Of a DNA stretch of 64,000 bases, positions 20,264 to 27,978 are shown piece by piece (the first letter of the stretch is position 1; each line of letters opens with the position of its first letter). Below the pieces are notes generated by a model, which saw nothing but the letters and a program-made list of their open reading frames with translations, had not been told where the DNA came from and ran no database searches. Source of the DNA: a virus. The stretch is from the IMG/VR virus record IMGVR_UViG_3300033047_000025, positions 1 to 64,000 of that record; one strand, given 5' to 3'. Position numbers and translations under genes: made by a program.

Positions 20264-23200
20264 ATGGCGAAAACCCACGTTTACGGTCTGTTTGGCGACG
20301 CACATGTCCGTGGTAACAGTGGGTCTGATGCGGGTAGCTCTCCGCCTGTCGTGCTGGGTCCAGCAGAGCAGATCCTGTTTTTCTTCGGGAGCCACAATCT
20401 AGTAGCTGGTACCGACGAGAATACTACGATTGAGCAGACGATCGCGGCGGCTGCTACTGACGTTCGTGCGAGGGTGGTCGCCATCCCTAGCGCGTCGACT
20501 GTCATCGTAGAGCCAATCGTACCGTCTACTACTGCCCTGTATCCAGCTCAGCTAAATGCAGAGCGTAGGATCATGTGGAGTTCAACGGACGCAATCACAT
20601 TCAATAGGGGTGCTCCACAAGGCTTAAGAGTCTTCTCTTACACGAACTCGCAGTTGATTGAGCAGCTCAACGACGATGAGTTACTAAAGCCAACTGAAGA
20701 TAGTGTATTCTGGGACCCGAATGCTCGTTTAGCCCGTACGGTCAGCATCGAAAACTTCGACGGGTCCGGGTCAGAAGCGGTATACCCAGGAGACAAGCTT
20801 ACTGCATCTAGCGGAGGAGACTTCCTGGTAGTTGGTGTGAGTAATGTAGACAATGCCGCGAAGACGGCTACGCTTCACGTAGCAAACTGGAATGGGTCAA
20901 TTGCTAACGGCGATACTCTGGCGACTGACCATACCACGCCGAACCAGTCTTGGACAGGTGTGTCTATTGTTGCGTCCACAGGAATCGGCGCCGCACAATC
21001 AGCAGGGTCGTGGGTCCCGCACTGTGCCTCTCCATCTCTAGGATTCACGATAGAGCAGCTTGAGAGTGACACTGTTGATGTTACTGTAGGTAGCATGTGG
21101 GAAGTTCCCCCAAGGGGAAACGGTAATATTAACTCCACCAAGTCTACCTCTCCACAGCTAGGGCCAGATACCAAAATCGTTCGCAACGCGATTCGAACTT
21201 ATGAGAACCTAGAGAGTGACGATCAGGGCATCCGACTTGTCAAGTTCGGATCGAATGAGACGACACTCACAGACACTGGAGGCCTAGGTGGCGTCACGCT
21301 GCAATACGTATCGGTATCCTCACCATCTGGTACATACACCACAGGAGAGGTAGTTACTTCTGATGACGCAGTACCATGGTCTGCAAAGGTAGCTGGATAC
21401 TTCGGTAGCATTCTCTATGTGCACACCACGAACGGTGAGGTTCTAGGTGCATCAAAGACTATCACGGGCGCCACATCGGGTGTGACATCGACCTCCGCAG
21501 GCGCCGCAGTCGGCTGGCAGAAGGGATCCTCATACTGGAACGCCATGGCGGCAGAGCGCACATCTGCAGAGGGTGCAACAGGCTTCCTACATAACGGATC
21601 TGCAGCGAAGTGGGAGCGCATCTTCCTGATGGTCTGGGAAGGTGAGGTTGGCCCGTATTCGATCCTGTATGGGGCCGACGCAGCGGCTGGGTATGCAATG
21701 TCTATAGAGATGACACTGACTTCCCAAGCAGCGCGTCGTGCACAATGGACCACGTTTGCTGCGGATCTGAGGGCTCTGCTTGACCCTTCAGGGGGTGTTA
21801 GTATGCACATCCGTACCTGGGTCCACCATAGCGGGTCTCAGTCTGAGTCGATGACTCCTACCCTTGGTTTAGGAGTAGTCTCTGCAGCTACTCGTGCAAA
21901 TATCCTTGAGCTTCCATCATACGTGACAAACTTCTCGGTTGTAGACTCCGAGCAGCGCGGCCACCTAATGGAAAGCGGTAGAAGTGCAAGCTACGGTGCA
22001 GGAGATACTGATACCGACCTTTTCCTAAGAACTAGTGACTACATTGACCTAGGTCAGGCACTGTGGGATGGGAGGTCGAACAGGGCAATCACTGCGCCGG
22101 CCGGAAACCTTCAGATCCTACCTATCGGGGTCATTAGTGGAAGCCAGTCACAGATGCTGGGAACGGCCAATTACAACAGTGGGGTATCTGGCGTAGCCTA
22201 TATCGACAGAGACCCTGAGAAGTACGCATCGGCGAGCTTCCTGGCTCATGGTAATACCGTCATCGACACCACGGATTCGAATGCTGTCGTATTCAACTTC
22301 CAGGAAGATGAATTGGAAACGTGGGATGTGAACCTGAATGAGAACACGTTCAACATCGCGGCCACGGCCATAGGAACAACTGGGCCTTGCCCACCCATCG
22401 TTCAGCGCATGAAGATGAGGTACGGTTCTGGTGGAACATCCGGCCTGTTCGGATTGTTCAAGGCCGTTGTGGGTGGGTCATGCCTCAACCCTGATATCCG
22501 AGTCGCTACCGGGTGCTGGCAGCCGCTCCTGACTTCCAGACCCAGCACAGGGCCGGTGTCGACCGTTGTGACTCACGTCAACAACAAAGCAGTCTTCACT
22601 GCTGCAGGAGCATTCAGCACGTTTGGTAGCGCCGACTACACTGTCGTCATCACGGGCGGTGCCCTATTCCAGGGAGCCATGGGAAGAAACACAGTTCTTC
22701 ATGGTATCAATATCGCCAGTAACATCACGTCTAACTCGTTCGAGATTGACGACGCATCTGGACTCATCGAGAACGGGACAGAGACACTCACCTTCACATT
22801 CGGTCCGCCGCCACTTTGGCCTACCATGGAAGCCAAGTGGAAGCTGTTCGTTGCGGACTGTATTCAGAAGGGCTACATACCACGGCCAGTGTGGCTATTG
22901 CAGGACCAGGGCGAGAGCGACATGTTGGAGGTATCTAGCTACAAGCAATACCTAGACGAGTTCTGGACCGCCTTCGAGGACCTGTGTGATATGCGGGAGT
23001 CTACTTCCGACTCCGACATTGCCAAGTGCATCGTGCAGGTACATAAATACTCTCCGTTCGGTAATACGCCAATCGCTGATATTAACACGATTAGGGGTCT
23101 CCAGTCGACTAAGTCCAGCACACTTGCAAACTGCGTTCTTGTAGACCCGACGCCCCTGTCACTAGAGGTTAGTGCAGATAGCCCTACTCCTAATATCTCT

Positions 23201-23392
23201 GTGCCGCCATGGCCACGTAGGTACAGGCTTGAGAATGGTATCCACCTAACGTTGTTCGCCATGCAAACGAAGGGCTACATGATCGACGCAGCACTCGGCT
23301 CTCTTTCGTCTATCCCATCGCACCCCAACGCTGACGTGTCCGTAGGCTATGGAGCTTCCGATGGCACGGGCAGGCTGGAGCAACAGGCATGA
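20264..23392 (+). CDS. Large virion protein with SGNH (sialate acetylesterase-like) domain, 1042 aa
   Basis: The C-terminal 420 residues resemble SGNH/SASA carbohydrate esterases: block I GSQSQM with likely nucleophile S629, WLLQDQGESD at residues 877-886 matching the typical WxQGESD, and GIH with H994 in the final block. The Asp normally three residues before that His is Asn991 here, so activity is not certain. Residues 1-600 are beta-rich, with repeated Thr/Ser/Gly segments as in virion appendages. The gene sits between coat and connector genes, so it may be a head fibre or decoration that removes acetyl groups from host surface sugars. This location is unusual for an esterase. Confidence 0.7.
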   Translation: MAKTHVYGLFGDAHVRGNSGSDAGSSPPVVLGPAEQILFFFGSHNLVAGTDENTTIEQTIAAAATDVRARVVAIPSASTVIVEPIVPSTTALYPAQLNAERRIMWSSTDAITFNRGAPQGLRVFSYTNSQLIEQLNDDELLKPTEDSVFWDPNARLARTVSIENFDGSGSEAVYPGDKLTASSGGDFLVVGVSNVDNAAKTATLHVANWNGSIANGDTLATDHTTPNQSWTGVSIVASTGIGAAQSAGSWVPHCASPSLGFTIEQLESDTVDVTVGSMWEVPPRGNGNINSTKSTSPQLGPDTKIVRNAIRTYENLESDDQGIRLVKFGSNETTLTDTGGLGGVTLQYVSVSSPSGTYTTGEVVTSDDAVPWSAKVAGYFGSILYVHTTNGEVLGASKTITGATSGVTSTSAGAAVGWQKGSSYWNAMAAERTSAEGATGFLHNGSAAKWERIFLMVWEGEVGPYSILYGADAAAGYAMSIEMTLTSQAARRAQWTTFAADLRALLDPSGGVSMHIRTWVHHSGSQSESMTPTLGLGVVSAATRANILELPSYVTNFSVVDSEQRGHLMESGRSASYGAGDTDTDLFLRTSDYIDLGQALWDGRSNRAITAPAGNLQILPIGVISGSQSQMLGTANYNSGVSGVAYIDRDPEKYASASFLAHGNTVIDTTDSNAVVFNFQEDELETWDVNLNENTFNIAATAIGTTGPCPPIVQRMKMRYGSGGTSGLFGLFKAVVGGSCLNPDIRVATGCWQPLLTSRPSTGPVSTVVTHVNNKAVFTAAGAFSTFGSADYTVVITGGALFQGAMGRNTVLHGINIASNITSNSFEIDDASGLIENGTETLTFTFGPPPLWPTMEAKWKLFVADCIQKGYIPRPVWLLQDQGESDMLEVSSYKQYLDEFWTAFEDLCDMRESTSDSDIAKCIVQVHKYSPFGNTPIADINTIRGLQSTKSSTLANCVLVDPTPLSLEVSADSPTPNISVPPWPRRYRLENGIHLTLFAMQTKGYMIDAALGSLSSIPSHPNADVSVGYGASDGTGRLEQQA

Positions 23393-23961
23393 CATCTGGA
23401 ACACCAGGAGTAGGAAACATCGTTATCGAGGATGGTACTGGTTACGACAACTCGGACAGCATCGCTTCGGTGACGTTTGCCGACACGTTCCTCCTAATTA
23501 CTGACCCATCATCGATGTGGCATAACGTCTCGACTACAGACGTCATGAAGGGATCAGCTCTCCGAAAGGCAACCATGGAGTGGATGGAGGGTCAATACCA
23601 GGACTCTCTACGCGGAAGGATTTCTGTCCTGGACCAGTTTTTATCTATGCCTAGAATTGGGTTGTTCGATGATTCTGGACGCACTGTCGGATCAGCAGAG
23701 ATCCCTGTCAAAATGCAGCAAGCCATCGCGATGATTGCCCATGACATCGTGATCAACAGTACTACTGTTCTACCTACAGGCGTACAAAGGTCTTCGTCGA
23801 TCACTGAGGAGACCAGTAAGATTGGGCCTATGAGTAAAACCACCAGGTGGAATAATCAGGGTTCGGACACCGAATCGTCTCTTGTAGCTTATCTGGCTGC
23901 GGAGGCTCTATTCTATCCCTACATTGACAATGATGGTCTGAATACCGTGGTGTTGTCCTAG
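23389..23961 (+). CDS. Head-tail connector, gp6-like (DnaT-like family), 190 aa
   Basis: Residues 60-115 contain ATMEWMEGQYQDSLRGRI followed by PRIGLFDDSG and EIPVKMQQAIAMIA, the pattern of phage head-tail connector proteins that databases often label DnaT-like. These form a ring under the portal. ATGA overlaps the previous gene, and the stop overlaps the next start. Confidence 0.75.
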   Translation: MTSGTPGVGNIVIEDGTGYDNSDSIASVTFADTFLLITDPSSMWHNVSTTDVMKGSALRKATMEWMEGQYQDSLRGRISVLDQFLSMPRIGLFDDSGRTVGSAEIPVKMQQAIAMIAHDIVINSTTVLPTGVQRSSSITEETSKIGPMSKTTRWNNQGSDTESSLVAYLAAEALFYPYIDNDGLNTVVLS

Positions 23962-24353
23962 TGGGATTCGGCACGGAAATGCAGCTAGCGGTGTTGGGTT
24001 TGATCCACGATACCGGAGGTTTCGGTCACAGGATCAGCGTAAAGTTCAACAGTCGCACGGCCAATGTGACCACTGGTAGTGTTGCCGTGTCTACGGTTAC
24101 ACAGGAGACCGTTGGCGCCGTAACTGGATCCATAGACATGGAGTCGTTCTTTGGGCATTCCACGCTTACCGCGATGTCCACTTCTGTCGTGCTTTCTCCC
24201 AGTGACATTTCGGACGTTCCTGAGCTTCACGACGAGATTGCGGTTGAGAGCGGCGTATATCTTCGCGTCCTTGATGTCAACAAGATCATCGCGCCAGATG
24301 ATCTGACGTCATACCCAGTCATAGTGGCTTACGTTGTAGCCCTAGGAACGTAA
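23961..24353 (+). CDS. Head closure / head-tail joining protein candidate, 130 aa
   Basis: GTG 23961 overlaps the connector stop by one base. Beta-rich small protein in the position normally held by the stopper or head-closure protein. No direct sequence motif; the call rests on gene order and size. Confidence 0.5.
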   Translation: MGFGTEMQLAVLGLIHDTGGFGHRISVKFNSRTANVTTGSVAVSTVTQETVGAVTGSIDMESFFGHSTLTAMSTSVVLSPSDISDVPELHDEIAVESGVYLRVLDVNKIIAPDDLTSYPVIVAYVVALGT

Positions 24354-24886
24354 TGGGCGTCAACTCCCGTAACGCTAGCAAATACGAGAGGGAGCTTCGT
24401 AAGATGGCTCAGAATGTGGGCGATGTGATCATCATGCCTATCGTTCGTGAGGCTGTTGCAGACATCGTCGAGGTTGCCGCATCCCTGGCTCCGTACAATC
24501 TTGGGCATCTAAGGTCTGCCTTTACGGCCACAGTCAATGGATCAGGACGACTCCCAGGTAGCGCCAACATTGACAAGATCCGAGCTACAGCAGTCAGAAA
24601 CCTGAGACGTGCCCGGTTAAGCGACGTTATCACCGTCGAAAACCAGGTTCCATACTCTGAGACGTATGAGTACGGACTGTTCGAGCCGGCTACTCCTGAA
24701 TATGCCAAGCTTGGTGGTAGTGAAGCTCGTCATGTTCCCAAGTCACGCAAGCACGAGAAGCTTGGAAAGGTTCTGATCGTCAGCGGTTTCAATGTAACTG
24801 CTCCGAACGGCATGGTGTCTGAAGCATTGCAGATCGTAAACTCCCGTATCGCCGCAGGCAAGTACAAGCAGGGGTCATTCAAGTGA
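24353..24886 (+). CDS. Tail completion protein, HK97-gp10-like, 177 aa
   Basis: Has the layout of gp10/minor tail proteins: a helical N-terminus, SLAPYNLGHLRSAFTATV at about residues 42-59 (the APxxTGxLRxS-like motif) and a VPYSETYEYGLF block near residue 100. Such proteins help join head and tail. Overlaps neighbours by one and four bases. Confidence 0.7.
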   Translation: MGVNSRNASKYERELRKMAQNVGDVIIMPIVREAVADIVEVAASLAPYNLGHLRSAFTATVNGSGRLPGSANIDKIRATAVRNLRRARLSDVITVENQVPYSETYEYGLFEPATPEYAKLGGSEARHVPKSRKHEKLGKVLIVSGFNVTAPNGMVSEALQIVNSRIAAGKYKQGSFK

Positions 24887-25728
24887 CAATCGCTGACGTG
24901 GAAAACTCTCTGCGTGTGGCTGCCTCCGTATGGGCGACAGCAAACAACATCCAGTTCGAGTTTGATAACTCAGTGTCTGCTAGTGTGTCTAACCCGACCA
25001 CGCCAATTCTCATGTGGGGGTTCAGCGAGATGTCCCGCGATCGAATCTCTAGTGCTCATGTCCTTGTTGAGGGGGAATGCCGTGGCACAATCCTGATACC
25101 TGTCACGCCAGACGACGGGACTAGCCAGCCTGTCAAGGAACATATTGAACTGGTTGAGTCCCTGCTGGATAATTTCCGTGGCAAGACGGACTCTAACGAT
25201 ACTTTTTCTCTAAGTGAATCCCGACTTGAGTATGGGTCCAACATAGGATCGATGCGGGCCATTACCGCCGTGATCGAGTGGCAGTGGACAGATAATAGGT
25301 ACGTGTCAGGATCAGTAACTGCACCACTGGCCACGAAAGGCGTCGATAAGGCTTATGAGATTCTAAGGTCCGTATGGGGGTCAAGAGTTCAGTCCACAAT
25401 ATCGACCAATACATTCTTTGACGGCACTCCGGGGTTAGCTATTGCACTACCGGCTTGCATATGTTCGTTCTCAGTACTCAAGGGGCGTTCCCTAGAGATG
25501 AACTCTACCAAGTCAACTGGACAAGTTAATGTCGACCTACATTACCCCCTAGGTACCGGCGTTACCTCTATGCAGTTGGATACTGAACTGATCATTCAGT
25601 CTTTCGATTCTATCGAAGGTGGTGGTGTAGTATTCGAGACCCCACAGGTCTCACGCATCGGCAGGACAACCGAGGAAACATGGCACGTAAATGTCCGCAT
25701 GCCATTTACCTTTCAGGACATCTCATAA
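24883..25728 (+). CDS. Tail terminator, apparently a tandem-fused dimer, 281 aa
   Basis: GTG 24883 overlaps the previous stop (GTGA). The C-terminal half (about 148-281) shows the tail-terminator pattern: VNVDLHYPLGTGVTSMQLD, a helix, VFETPQVSRIGRT and WHVNVRMPFTFQ. The N-terminal half (5-140) repeats the same order: GTILIPVTPDDGTSQPVKE, a helix, LSESRLEYG and MRAITAVIEWQW. Terminators of siphophages are normally about 130-150 aa and act as hexamers, so this looks like an internal duplication able to form a pseudo-hexamer from three chains. Its place before the tail tube gene agrees. Confidence 0.65.
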   Translation: MTIADVENSLRVAASVWATANNIQFEFDNSVSASVSNPTTPILMWGFSEMSRDRISSAHVLVEGECRGTILIPVTPDDGTSQPVKEHIELVESLLDNFRGKTDSNDTFSLSESRLEYGSNIGSMRAITAVIEWQWTDNRYVSGSVTAPLATKGVDKAYEILRSVWGSRVQSTISTNTFFDGTPGLAIALPACICSFSVLKGRSLEMNSTKSTGQVNVDLHYPLGTGVTSMQLDTELIIQSFDSIEGGGVVFETPQVSRIGRTTEETWHVNVRMPFTFQDIS

Positions 25729-25731
25729 AAA

Positions 25732-27123
25732 ATGGCAACCATCAAGAAAAATGCAGGTCTTGGCTTTTACGTCGAGGCCGTCATCGGAACCTGCCCGACA
25801 CTTTCCGCATCGAATCCCATTCGAGTCACTCGACTTGTCAGTGAAGACCTAAACGCGAGCTTCTCGCGAGACGAATCCAATGAGGTTCGTGGCGATGCGC
25901 AGACTGCAGGATCTGTCATTACGGGGGTATCGGGGTCAGGATCGATATCGATTCAGTACTCTATGGAGACCTATGATGACTTACTCGCCGGCCTACTGTT
26001 TGCCCACGGCACCGTAGATGGTGACGACGAGTTGTCAGGATGGGAGGGACCCGATAGTGGATTTGTTGCGAGCGGCGCTTCGGTACCGAACAACATGGGA
26101 ACATGGGAACTGGCGGGTAACGTTCTGACTCTTGACACGGGTGACGTGGCTACGTTAGCGATCGCTGACGATGAGTATGTCCAGATTAGCGGTAGTGGAA
26201 ACGCGAACCTTGACGGTGTCTGGCGCCAGGTATTCACTGGAGAGGATGTCACACTTGAATCTCCGAACCCGACTCAAACGGTAGCTCAGTACACGGGTCT
26301 ATCTGGAACCCTTACGACTACAGCTATGACCATTACGCCGCTAGACGGTGTATCGGCAAATGGAACCCAGGACCGCTCATTCGGGTTTGCCAGGTTCTAC
26401 TCGGACTCGTCACTTGCCGGGGATAACTCGTCGAGCACTGTCAACCTGGCTAGCGCGTGCGACATCGCAATCTTCCGGGGCGGATTTATCACCTCCATGC
26501 AGCTTTCGGTCGCTCCTGGGCAAGCTGGCTGGACAGGCTCGTTCTCTGTGCTTCACGCCGGCGAGGAGAGTACTACAGTAGCCACCACTGTGGCTCAGAC
26601 GCCTCTTTCGAGTTTCGTTATGCCTACGTGGGACGTGAGCGTGGCTCCGAACACCAATCCACTACCAGACGCTATCCTTGGTGTCTCGAACGTTAAGCTC
26701 CGAAAGATTGGGGTAGCCAACGGCGCGCGCATTGACCCTTTGTCGCTCAACTTGACGATCTCGAACAACTCATCTGAGGTATCGGCTCTTCGCAATAGGG
26801 GTGCATTTGCTATCATTCAGGGCACTACCAGTGCGACTGTCGACATGGAAGTCATCTATGAGGACAACCTTCTGCACACCTCAATGGAGGACGACGATGC
26901 GTATGAGATCGAGATTGCGGTCGTAGACTCGGACGACAAGTGTCAGCTTATCCGATTGCCAAAGTGCCGACTCACTTCCGAGCGACCGAACCCTGGCAAG
27001 AACGCTCCTATCGTCCAACGGTTGAGCTTCACGGCTGAGCCAGGTGGCACTGACTTCGAAGGAGTCGCTAACGCAAAGATGGTCGAGATTCTCCGGTTCT
27101 ACACCCCGACAGCGTACAGCTAA
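25732..27123 (+). CDS. Major tail tube protein, 463 aa
   Basis: N-terminus (KNAGLGFYVEAVIGTCP) and the block at residues 48-90 (NEVRGDAQTAGSVITGVSGSGSISIQY...ETYDDLLAGLL) match the tail-tube protein family of siphophages. It is longer than most tube proteins; residues 95-200 appear to be an inserted Ig-like or beta domain that would project from the tube. Followed by a 121-bp gap with two hairpins and then the chaperone genes. Confidence 0.8.
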   Translation: MATIKKNAGLGFYVEAVIGTCPTLSASNPIRVTRLVSEDLNASFSRDESNEVRGDAQTAGSVITGVSGSGSISIQYSMETYDDLLAGLLFAHGTVDGDDELSGWEGPDSGFVASGASVPNNMGTWELAGNVLTLDTGDVATLAIADDEYVQISGSGNANLDGVWRQVFTGEDVTLESPNPTQTVAQYTGLSGTLTTTAMTITPLDGVSANGTQDRSFGFARFYSDSSLAGDNSSSTVNLASACDIAIFRGGFITSMQLSVAPGQAGWTGSFSVLHAGEESTTVATTVAQTPLSSFVMPTWDVSVAPNTNPLPDAILGVSNVKLRKIGVANGARIDPLSLNLTISNNSSEVSALRNRGAFAIIQGTTSATVDMEVIYEDNLLHTSMEDDDAYEIEIAVVDSDDKCQLIRLPKCRLTSERPNPGKNAPIVQRLSFTAEPGGTDFEGVANAKMVEILRFYTPTAYS

Positions 27124-27244: not shown

Positions 27245-27682
27245 ATGCAACCCCAGCTATTCAAGTCACTACGCACGGACCCGAAGAAGACCGAAGAGGG
27301 CATCTGGTTCACCAACCTAGAGTCGGGCGATAAGCTCCGCATTCGCCCCCTGATGTGCTCTCAGCAGATCAAGGCCTATATCGAGGCTCTCGACGATTAC
27401 GTCGACCAGCGCGGCGAGGATAAGCGTGAGAGCGAAGGTGCTGAGAAGCACGCCGAGGCGTTCTCCACTGCAGTCGGCCAGATTACCGACTGGAACCTTA
27501 AGGACTACCCAGACACCAAGTATGACCCGGCTCGGATGGCTGCGGCCCTGGCTGACCCGGAGCTTGAGGATCTTCGCATCTGGATTCGTTCTTGCAGCCT
27601 GCGGAAGAGCAAGTTCCGCCCAGAGGTGGTCGCGGGAAAGTCAGTGAGTACCTCCGATGGTGGAGGGTCAACGGCAGAGTGA
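27245..27682 (+). CDS. Tail assembly chaperone, lambda gpG-like, 145 aa
   Basis: Lies between tail tube and tape measure genes, the fixed place of the G/GT chaperone pair. Ordinary translation ends at 27682. Near the 3' end is the slippery heptamer GGGAAAG at 27634-27640, and a second open frame in the -1 register runs on to 27978. The short form is the expected abundant product that coats the tape measure protein during tail assembly. Confidence 0.75.
   Translation: MQPQLFKSLRTDPKKTEEGIWFTNLESGDKLRIRPLMCSQQIKAYIEALDDYVDQRGEDKRESEGAEKHAEAFSTAVGQITDWNLKDYPDTKYDPARMAAALADPELEDLRIWIRSCSLRKSKFRPEVVAGKSVSTSDGGGSTAE
27634..27640 (+). promoter_or_regulatory. Programmed -1 ribosomal frameshift site GGGAAAG
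   Basis: In the zero frame the codons are GGA AAG preceded by G, i.e. G_GGA_AAG, which fits X_XXY_YYZ. It is the same heptamer as in the lambda G-T gene. Slippage by -1 joins residue 132 of the short chaperone to the downstream frame. Confidence 0.8.
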
Positions 27683-27978
27683 TTGAACAGATGGAGCAGC
27701 GGGAGAAGATGAACGAGACGCGCGAGCGTAAAGGCATGCCACCTCTCCGCATGCACTCGTCATGGACCGACCGCCCGAAGATGAACCCTGCCGAGTGGTC
27801 TATCTTCGTTGACTTCACGAGCTTCTCATCATTGTGTGGCGGCGAGATTACCCCCCAAGCATTGTCTGCGTGGTTCGATATGAACCGCGTGAACGATGAC
27901 GACCGCGACTGGATGATAAAGGTGTATACAAGGCTGTCTTCAGTTATCAGGGAGCCGGCGCAGGAATCTGAGCAGTAG
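27640..27978 (+). CDS. T extension of tail assembly chaperone (made by -1 frameshift)
   Basis: Open from before the slippery site to TAG 27978, without a convincing start of its own. A -1 slip at 27640 would give a 244-residue fusion. The extension is helical and basic at first, then holds WSIFVDFTSFSSLCGG and ALSAWFDMNRVNDDDRDWMIKVY. By analogy with lambda gpGT the extension recruits the tail tube subunit to the tape measure complex. Confidence 0.75.
   Translation, partial: VSEYLRWWRVNGRVIEQMEQREKMNETRERKGMPPLRMHSSWTDRPKMNPAEWSIFVDFTSFSSLCGGEITPQALSAWFDMNRVNDDDRDWMIKVYTRLSSVIREPAQESEQ

Follow-up and report, generated by a model that had tools for sequence, protein, structure and literature searches.

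A single fold is believed to have given rise, through repeated gene multiplication, to the rings of phage necks and tails. Single-domain siphophage terminators (lambda gpU, T5 p142, members of PHROG_179/PF13554 and the ~136-aa proteins of Nanhaivirus) carry one domain of about 120–160 aa per chain, and the known structures are hexameric rings. In T5, a hexamer of single-domain terminators is carried by a trimeric tail tube (PMC11784142), and the tube protein, pb6, holds duplicated domains and forms a pseudo-hexameric trimer (PMC9022992); duplicated domains and a pseudo-hexameric trimer have likewise been described for the baseplate-tail connector (BTC) of HFTV1 (PMC12494034). The only solved two-domain terminator that we found is gp53 of the Clostridioides phage phiCD508 (PDB 9GB5/9GB7), a hexameric, double-layered ring (PMC11948020, PMC13324602), and the open-access literature searched described no fused or trimeric terminator beyond this two-domain case. 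The question at stake is whether fusion breaks six-fold symmetry down to three-fold or adds a second stacked ring. Here we describe a 281-aa protein encoded in a 64,000-nt stretch of viral DNA (the window; positions 1–64,000 of the 66.6-kb virus contig IMGVR_UViG_3300033047_000025) and identified as a tail terminator by its gene position, its profile matches and its fold. Taken jointly, this role and an architecture of two terminator domains are very probable.

The terminator gene lies between the neck or head-completion genes and the tail tube gene, in a slot (3' of Neck1 and directly 5' of the tube) that is the same in relatives with annotated neck and tail genes. The local gene order runs from Ad1 through a 130-aa protein without assignment (in the stopper position), the Neck1/HK97-gp10-like gene, the terminator, the tube and a chaperone to the tape measure (Table 1); downstream of the latter follow GTA-like DUF2460, baseplate hub, NlpC and Phage-tail_3 genes. 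The genes around the terminator are tightly packed: its GTG start (24883) shares bases with the stop codon of the Neck1-like gene (...caaGTGAca), while the terminator TAA (ending at 25728) stands 3 bases ahead of the tube ATG at 25732. Two further features of this region were recorded. A tail assembly chaperone pair (gpG/gpGT-like) occupies 27245–27978, just 5' of the tape measure gene; its frame at 27245–27682 is overlapped by a −1 frame that ends at 27978. At 27634–27640, the heptamer GGGAAAG is in the correct phase (G GGA AAG) for −1 programmed frameshifting. The lambda G–T frameshift uses the same heptamer. Between the capsid and Ad1 genes, a 1042-aa ORF (20264–23392) without a Pfam or PHROG match contains LLQDQGESDM, reminiscent of SGNH/SASA esterase motifs, and has a 27%-identical relative in contigs like G002, introduced below.

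Table 1. Coordinates of the terminator, its domains and neighbouring head-tail genes in the window
Feature	Coordinates	Strand	Details and basis
Two-domain tail terminator	24883..25728	+	GTG start, 281 aa; ORF, gene position, profiles, homologue, AF2 model, fold matches
N-terminal gpU-like terminator domain, residues 1–138	24883..25296	+	Window + G002 N-half profile, BLASTP to G002 N-half, model fold matches
Linker, residues about 139–150, predicted disordered	25297..25332	+	pLDDT <50 at residues 140–150
C-terminal gpU-like terminator domain, residues 151–281	25333..25725	+	PHROG_179, HHalign, model fold matches
Upstream tail completion/Neck1-like gene (context)	24353..24886	+	PHROG_169 E 3.7e-5; Pfam HK97-gp10_like E 6.5e-4
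Head-tail adaptor Ad1 (context)	23389..23961	+	PHROG_477 E 2.5e-17
Tail tube protein, Phage_tube_2 (context; ring capped by terminator)	25732..27123	+	Pfam PF18906 E 1.3e-17

The C-terminal half was recognized directly. It matched the PHROG_179 tail terminator profile (E 3e-5) and, as a single sequence, 52 single-domain terminators (HHalign prob 96.8, E 2.2e-10); its Pfam PF13554 match (E 0.014, 16.1 bits) lies under the 27-bit Pfam cut-off. The N-terminal half alone gave 5.6% by HHalign against single-domain terminators, and 2 of 200 of its own shuffles scored equal or higher when it was searched as a single sequence with HMMER. Being too diverged for recognition on its own, its assignment rests on a homologue and on the fold. 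The homologue is a 271-aa protein of metagenomic contigs G002 and G003, 32% identical over residues 2–278 (E 4e-37), each half of which matches PHROG_179 alone (N E 9e-12, C E 6e-8) and whose N-terminal half aligns with that of the window protein (BLASTP E 5e-8). A comparison of the two halves, proposed as a check by the first-pass annotation, found them related through relatives and not directly: BLASTP of one half against the other gave no repeat signal (E 2.8) and profile-profile comparison a prob of only 8.8, whereas a two-member profile of the window and G002 N-halves matched the 52 single-domain terminators over 128 columns (HHalign prob 96.6, E 4.8e-10) and aligned over the full length with a set of seven of this kind (prob 95.9, E 6e-9). 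As controls, eight neighbouring window proteins reached an HHalign prob of at most 1.0 against single-domain terminators.

The predicted fold tells the same story for both halves. The AlphaFold2 (AF2) single-chain model was built from six sequences, with the N-half covered by two of them only, and has a pLDDT of 76.1. A repeated succession of strand, helix and strand motifs had been read from the sequence at first pass, and the model shows the helix/strand order of a gpU-like α/β fold (helix, strands, helix, strands) twice, in the N-domain (H3-20 E24-27 E42-55 E60-73 H85-98 E108-121 E124-137) and in the C-domain (H151-170 E176-179 E191-205 E208-222 H227-241 E249-251 E255-261 E266-279). Residues 1–142 and 150–281 were superposed separately on solved structures with VIA-align. 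The counter-case of one terminator domain joined to an unrelated one was not what emerged: both halves superpose on solved terminators, the N-half on the pyocin R2 collar (Z 11.2), T5 p142 (Z 10.5) and the lambda tail cap (Z 10.4), and the C-half on the terminators of T1 (Z 14.1), FCWL1 (14.1), RcGTA (12.1) and R4C (11.5). The top Foldseek match of the whole model was phiCD508 gp53 (9gb5_H, 272 aa, E 3.9e-7), in an alignment covering both domains. The relative placement of the two domains in the model is unreliable (pTM 0.46), and with this pTM and a poor whole-chain superposition on gp53 (rmsd 21.7 Å), a domain arrangement common to the two proteins is not to be assumed. Homologue halves, N-half profile and fold together bear out the earlier description of the protein as a fused dimer that arose by internal duplication; in relatives, the domain occurs as a single copy of 130–140 aa.

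Full-length relatives of the terminator were reached through the terminase; tblastn with the window and G002 proteins in phages and pattern searches of viral and species genomes returned none. Two groups of metagenomic contigs (G002/G003/L106 and L195/L198–L206) encode a two-domain terminator in one gene directly 5' of the tube gene. Proteins of the L195 group are about 20–25% identical to the window protein, and this type comprises ten loci, several just about 47–48% identical to L195. We also scanned the gene 5' of the tube in 80 contigs, which were the best 80 of 262 tube matches and include near-duplicates, giving a rough rate: a terminator match was present in 74/80, with one domain in 71 (L186 as a fragment only) and two domains in one frame in three (L189, L191 and L195). 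PHROG_179 independently picks out two stretches in L189 and L195. The two-domain terminator is recurrent yet uncommon, because 3/74 survey contigs, the window, the G002 group and the L195 group have it, and in contig G006 two terminator genes stand next to each other, unfused. The Nanhaivirus phages R26L, R5C and Pan1, whose major capsid protein is related, encode a terminator of about 136 aa just 5' of the tube gene; of these, the R26L and Pan1 proteins were scanned, and both match PHROG_179. The first-pass view that known siphophage terminators are half as long holds for the close relatives, lambda gpU and T5 p142, but other metagenomic phages also have two-domain versions. Among relatives whose neck and tail genes follow a similar order, the successive stages can be seen together: a single gene, a pair of neighbouring genes and one fused gene.

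In a tree of the individual domains, the window N-domain pairs with the G002 N-domain (97/99) and the window C-domain with the G002 C-domain (98/92), and the two domains have therefore long been kept distinct. As far as these sequences go, the tree appears compatible with one or with several fusion origins, neither shown nor excluded. Some related loci are longer than the window gene. L189:32-2974 is a 980-aa ORF directly 5' of the tube that joins a roughly 700-aa N-terminal region without assignment to two terminator domains, and at L103:4460-7551 (in G006) and L142:1277-2983 a long frame with abundant short G/S/A repeats closes with a terminator domain. The second terminator gene of G006 comes immediately after its G/S/A-repeat frame.

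Our best explanation is that an ancestral single-domain (gpU/PHROG_179-like) terminator was duplicated in tandem and then fused, and that the fused protein caps the finished tail tube and offers a docking surface for the head (adaptor/stopper). Our lead reading, to which we give an even chance, is that six copies would assemble into a stack of two six-fold rings, with N-domains making up one layer and C-domains the other, on the pattern of phiCD508 gp53. Capping would remain with the tube-facing layer, the opposite layer would be turned towards the stopper, and the two domains could therefore specialize. The two adjacent terminator genes of G006 are easiest to picture as two such rings. Alternatively, three copies might close into one pseudo-six-fold ring, as suggested at first pass, with N- and C-domains alternating around it and two different types of site offered to the stopper and the tube. 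This is a credible reading, although we would put it below even: each chain holds two homologous domains according to model and profiles, the duplicated T5 pb6 and HFTV1 BTC document pseudo-hexameric trimers among tail proteins, and a trimer would preserve the stopper-tube ring geometry of single-domain relatives with a homologous tube. It would give a terminator with only pseudo-six-fold symmetry, of which we found no example in the literature searched. The gp53 hexamer weighs against assuming three copies, and T5 combines a trimeric tube with a hexamer of single-domain terminators. The window tube may itself be trimeric as in T5. For the only solved tube relative, 8xan_B, the entry contains three chains; this would be in keeping with a trimeric tube and is suggestive only. 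Profile comparison of the N- and C-halves of the window tube, as a test for a fused dimer, detects no internal duplication. The window tube measures 463 aa versus 391–404 aa in most relatives and 307 aa in 8xan_B, and its AF2 model (pLDDT 41) is unusable. The terminator linker of about 13 residues fits three- and six-copy arrangements alike.

It is improbable that only one of the two domains (probably the C-domain) forms the capping ring while the N-domain is a diverging duplicate serving as outer decoration or spacer. The window N-half has indeed drifted so far that the family profile misses it alone, and no branch of the domain tree is longer than that of this half (2.37), but the G002 N-half matches PHROG_179 better than the G002 C-half does, and the N-domain is retained in every two-domain relative and confidently folded in the AF2 model. 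The idea that the fusion is only apparent, created by faulty assembly or by loss of the stop codon separating tandem genes, deserves hardly any credence. The unfused state does exist, as the tandem separate genes of G006 illustrate, but the fused full-length frame is conserved in G002, at 32% identity, and likewise in independent contigs obtained from other samples, and this conservation largely refutes the idea.

Among described systems, the single-domain siphophage terminators share with the window protein the fold of each half, the place in the operon and the profile, and differ in having one domain per chain. T5 pb6 and HFTV1 BTC have in common with it tandem homologous ring domains within one chain; they are different tail proteins, solved as trimers, whereas the window protein is known from its gene and a single-chain model. 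The G002 and L195 groups, which are uncharacterized, share the arrangement of a two-domain terminator in one gene 5' of the tube. The closest solved counterpart, phiCD508 gp53, also combines two similar terminator-fold domains in one chain (272 aa), but it belongs to a contractile-tailed phage and we found no sequence match between the two proteins. The C-terminal strand of gp53 ties to the sheath, whereas the window protein ends at residue 281, two residues past its last predicted strand, without a sheath-binding strand of this type, and no sheath gene occurs among the window tail genes scanned. The window terminator is therefore only an architectural analogue of gp53 and not a member of the gp53 type. 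The two-domain terminator principle is already known from phiCD508, and the window protein is a further case of it.
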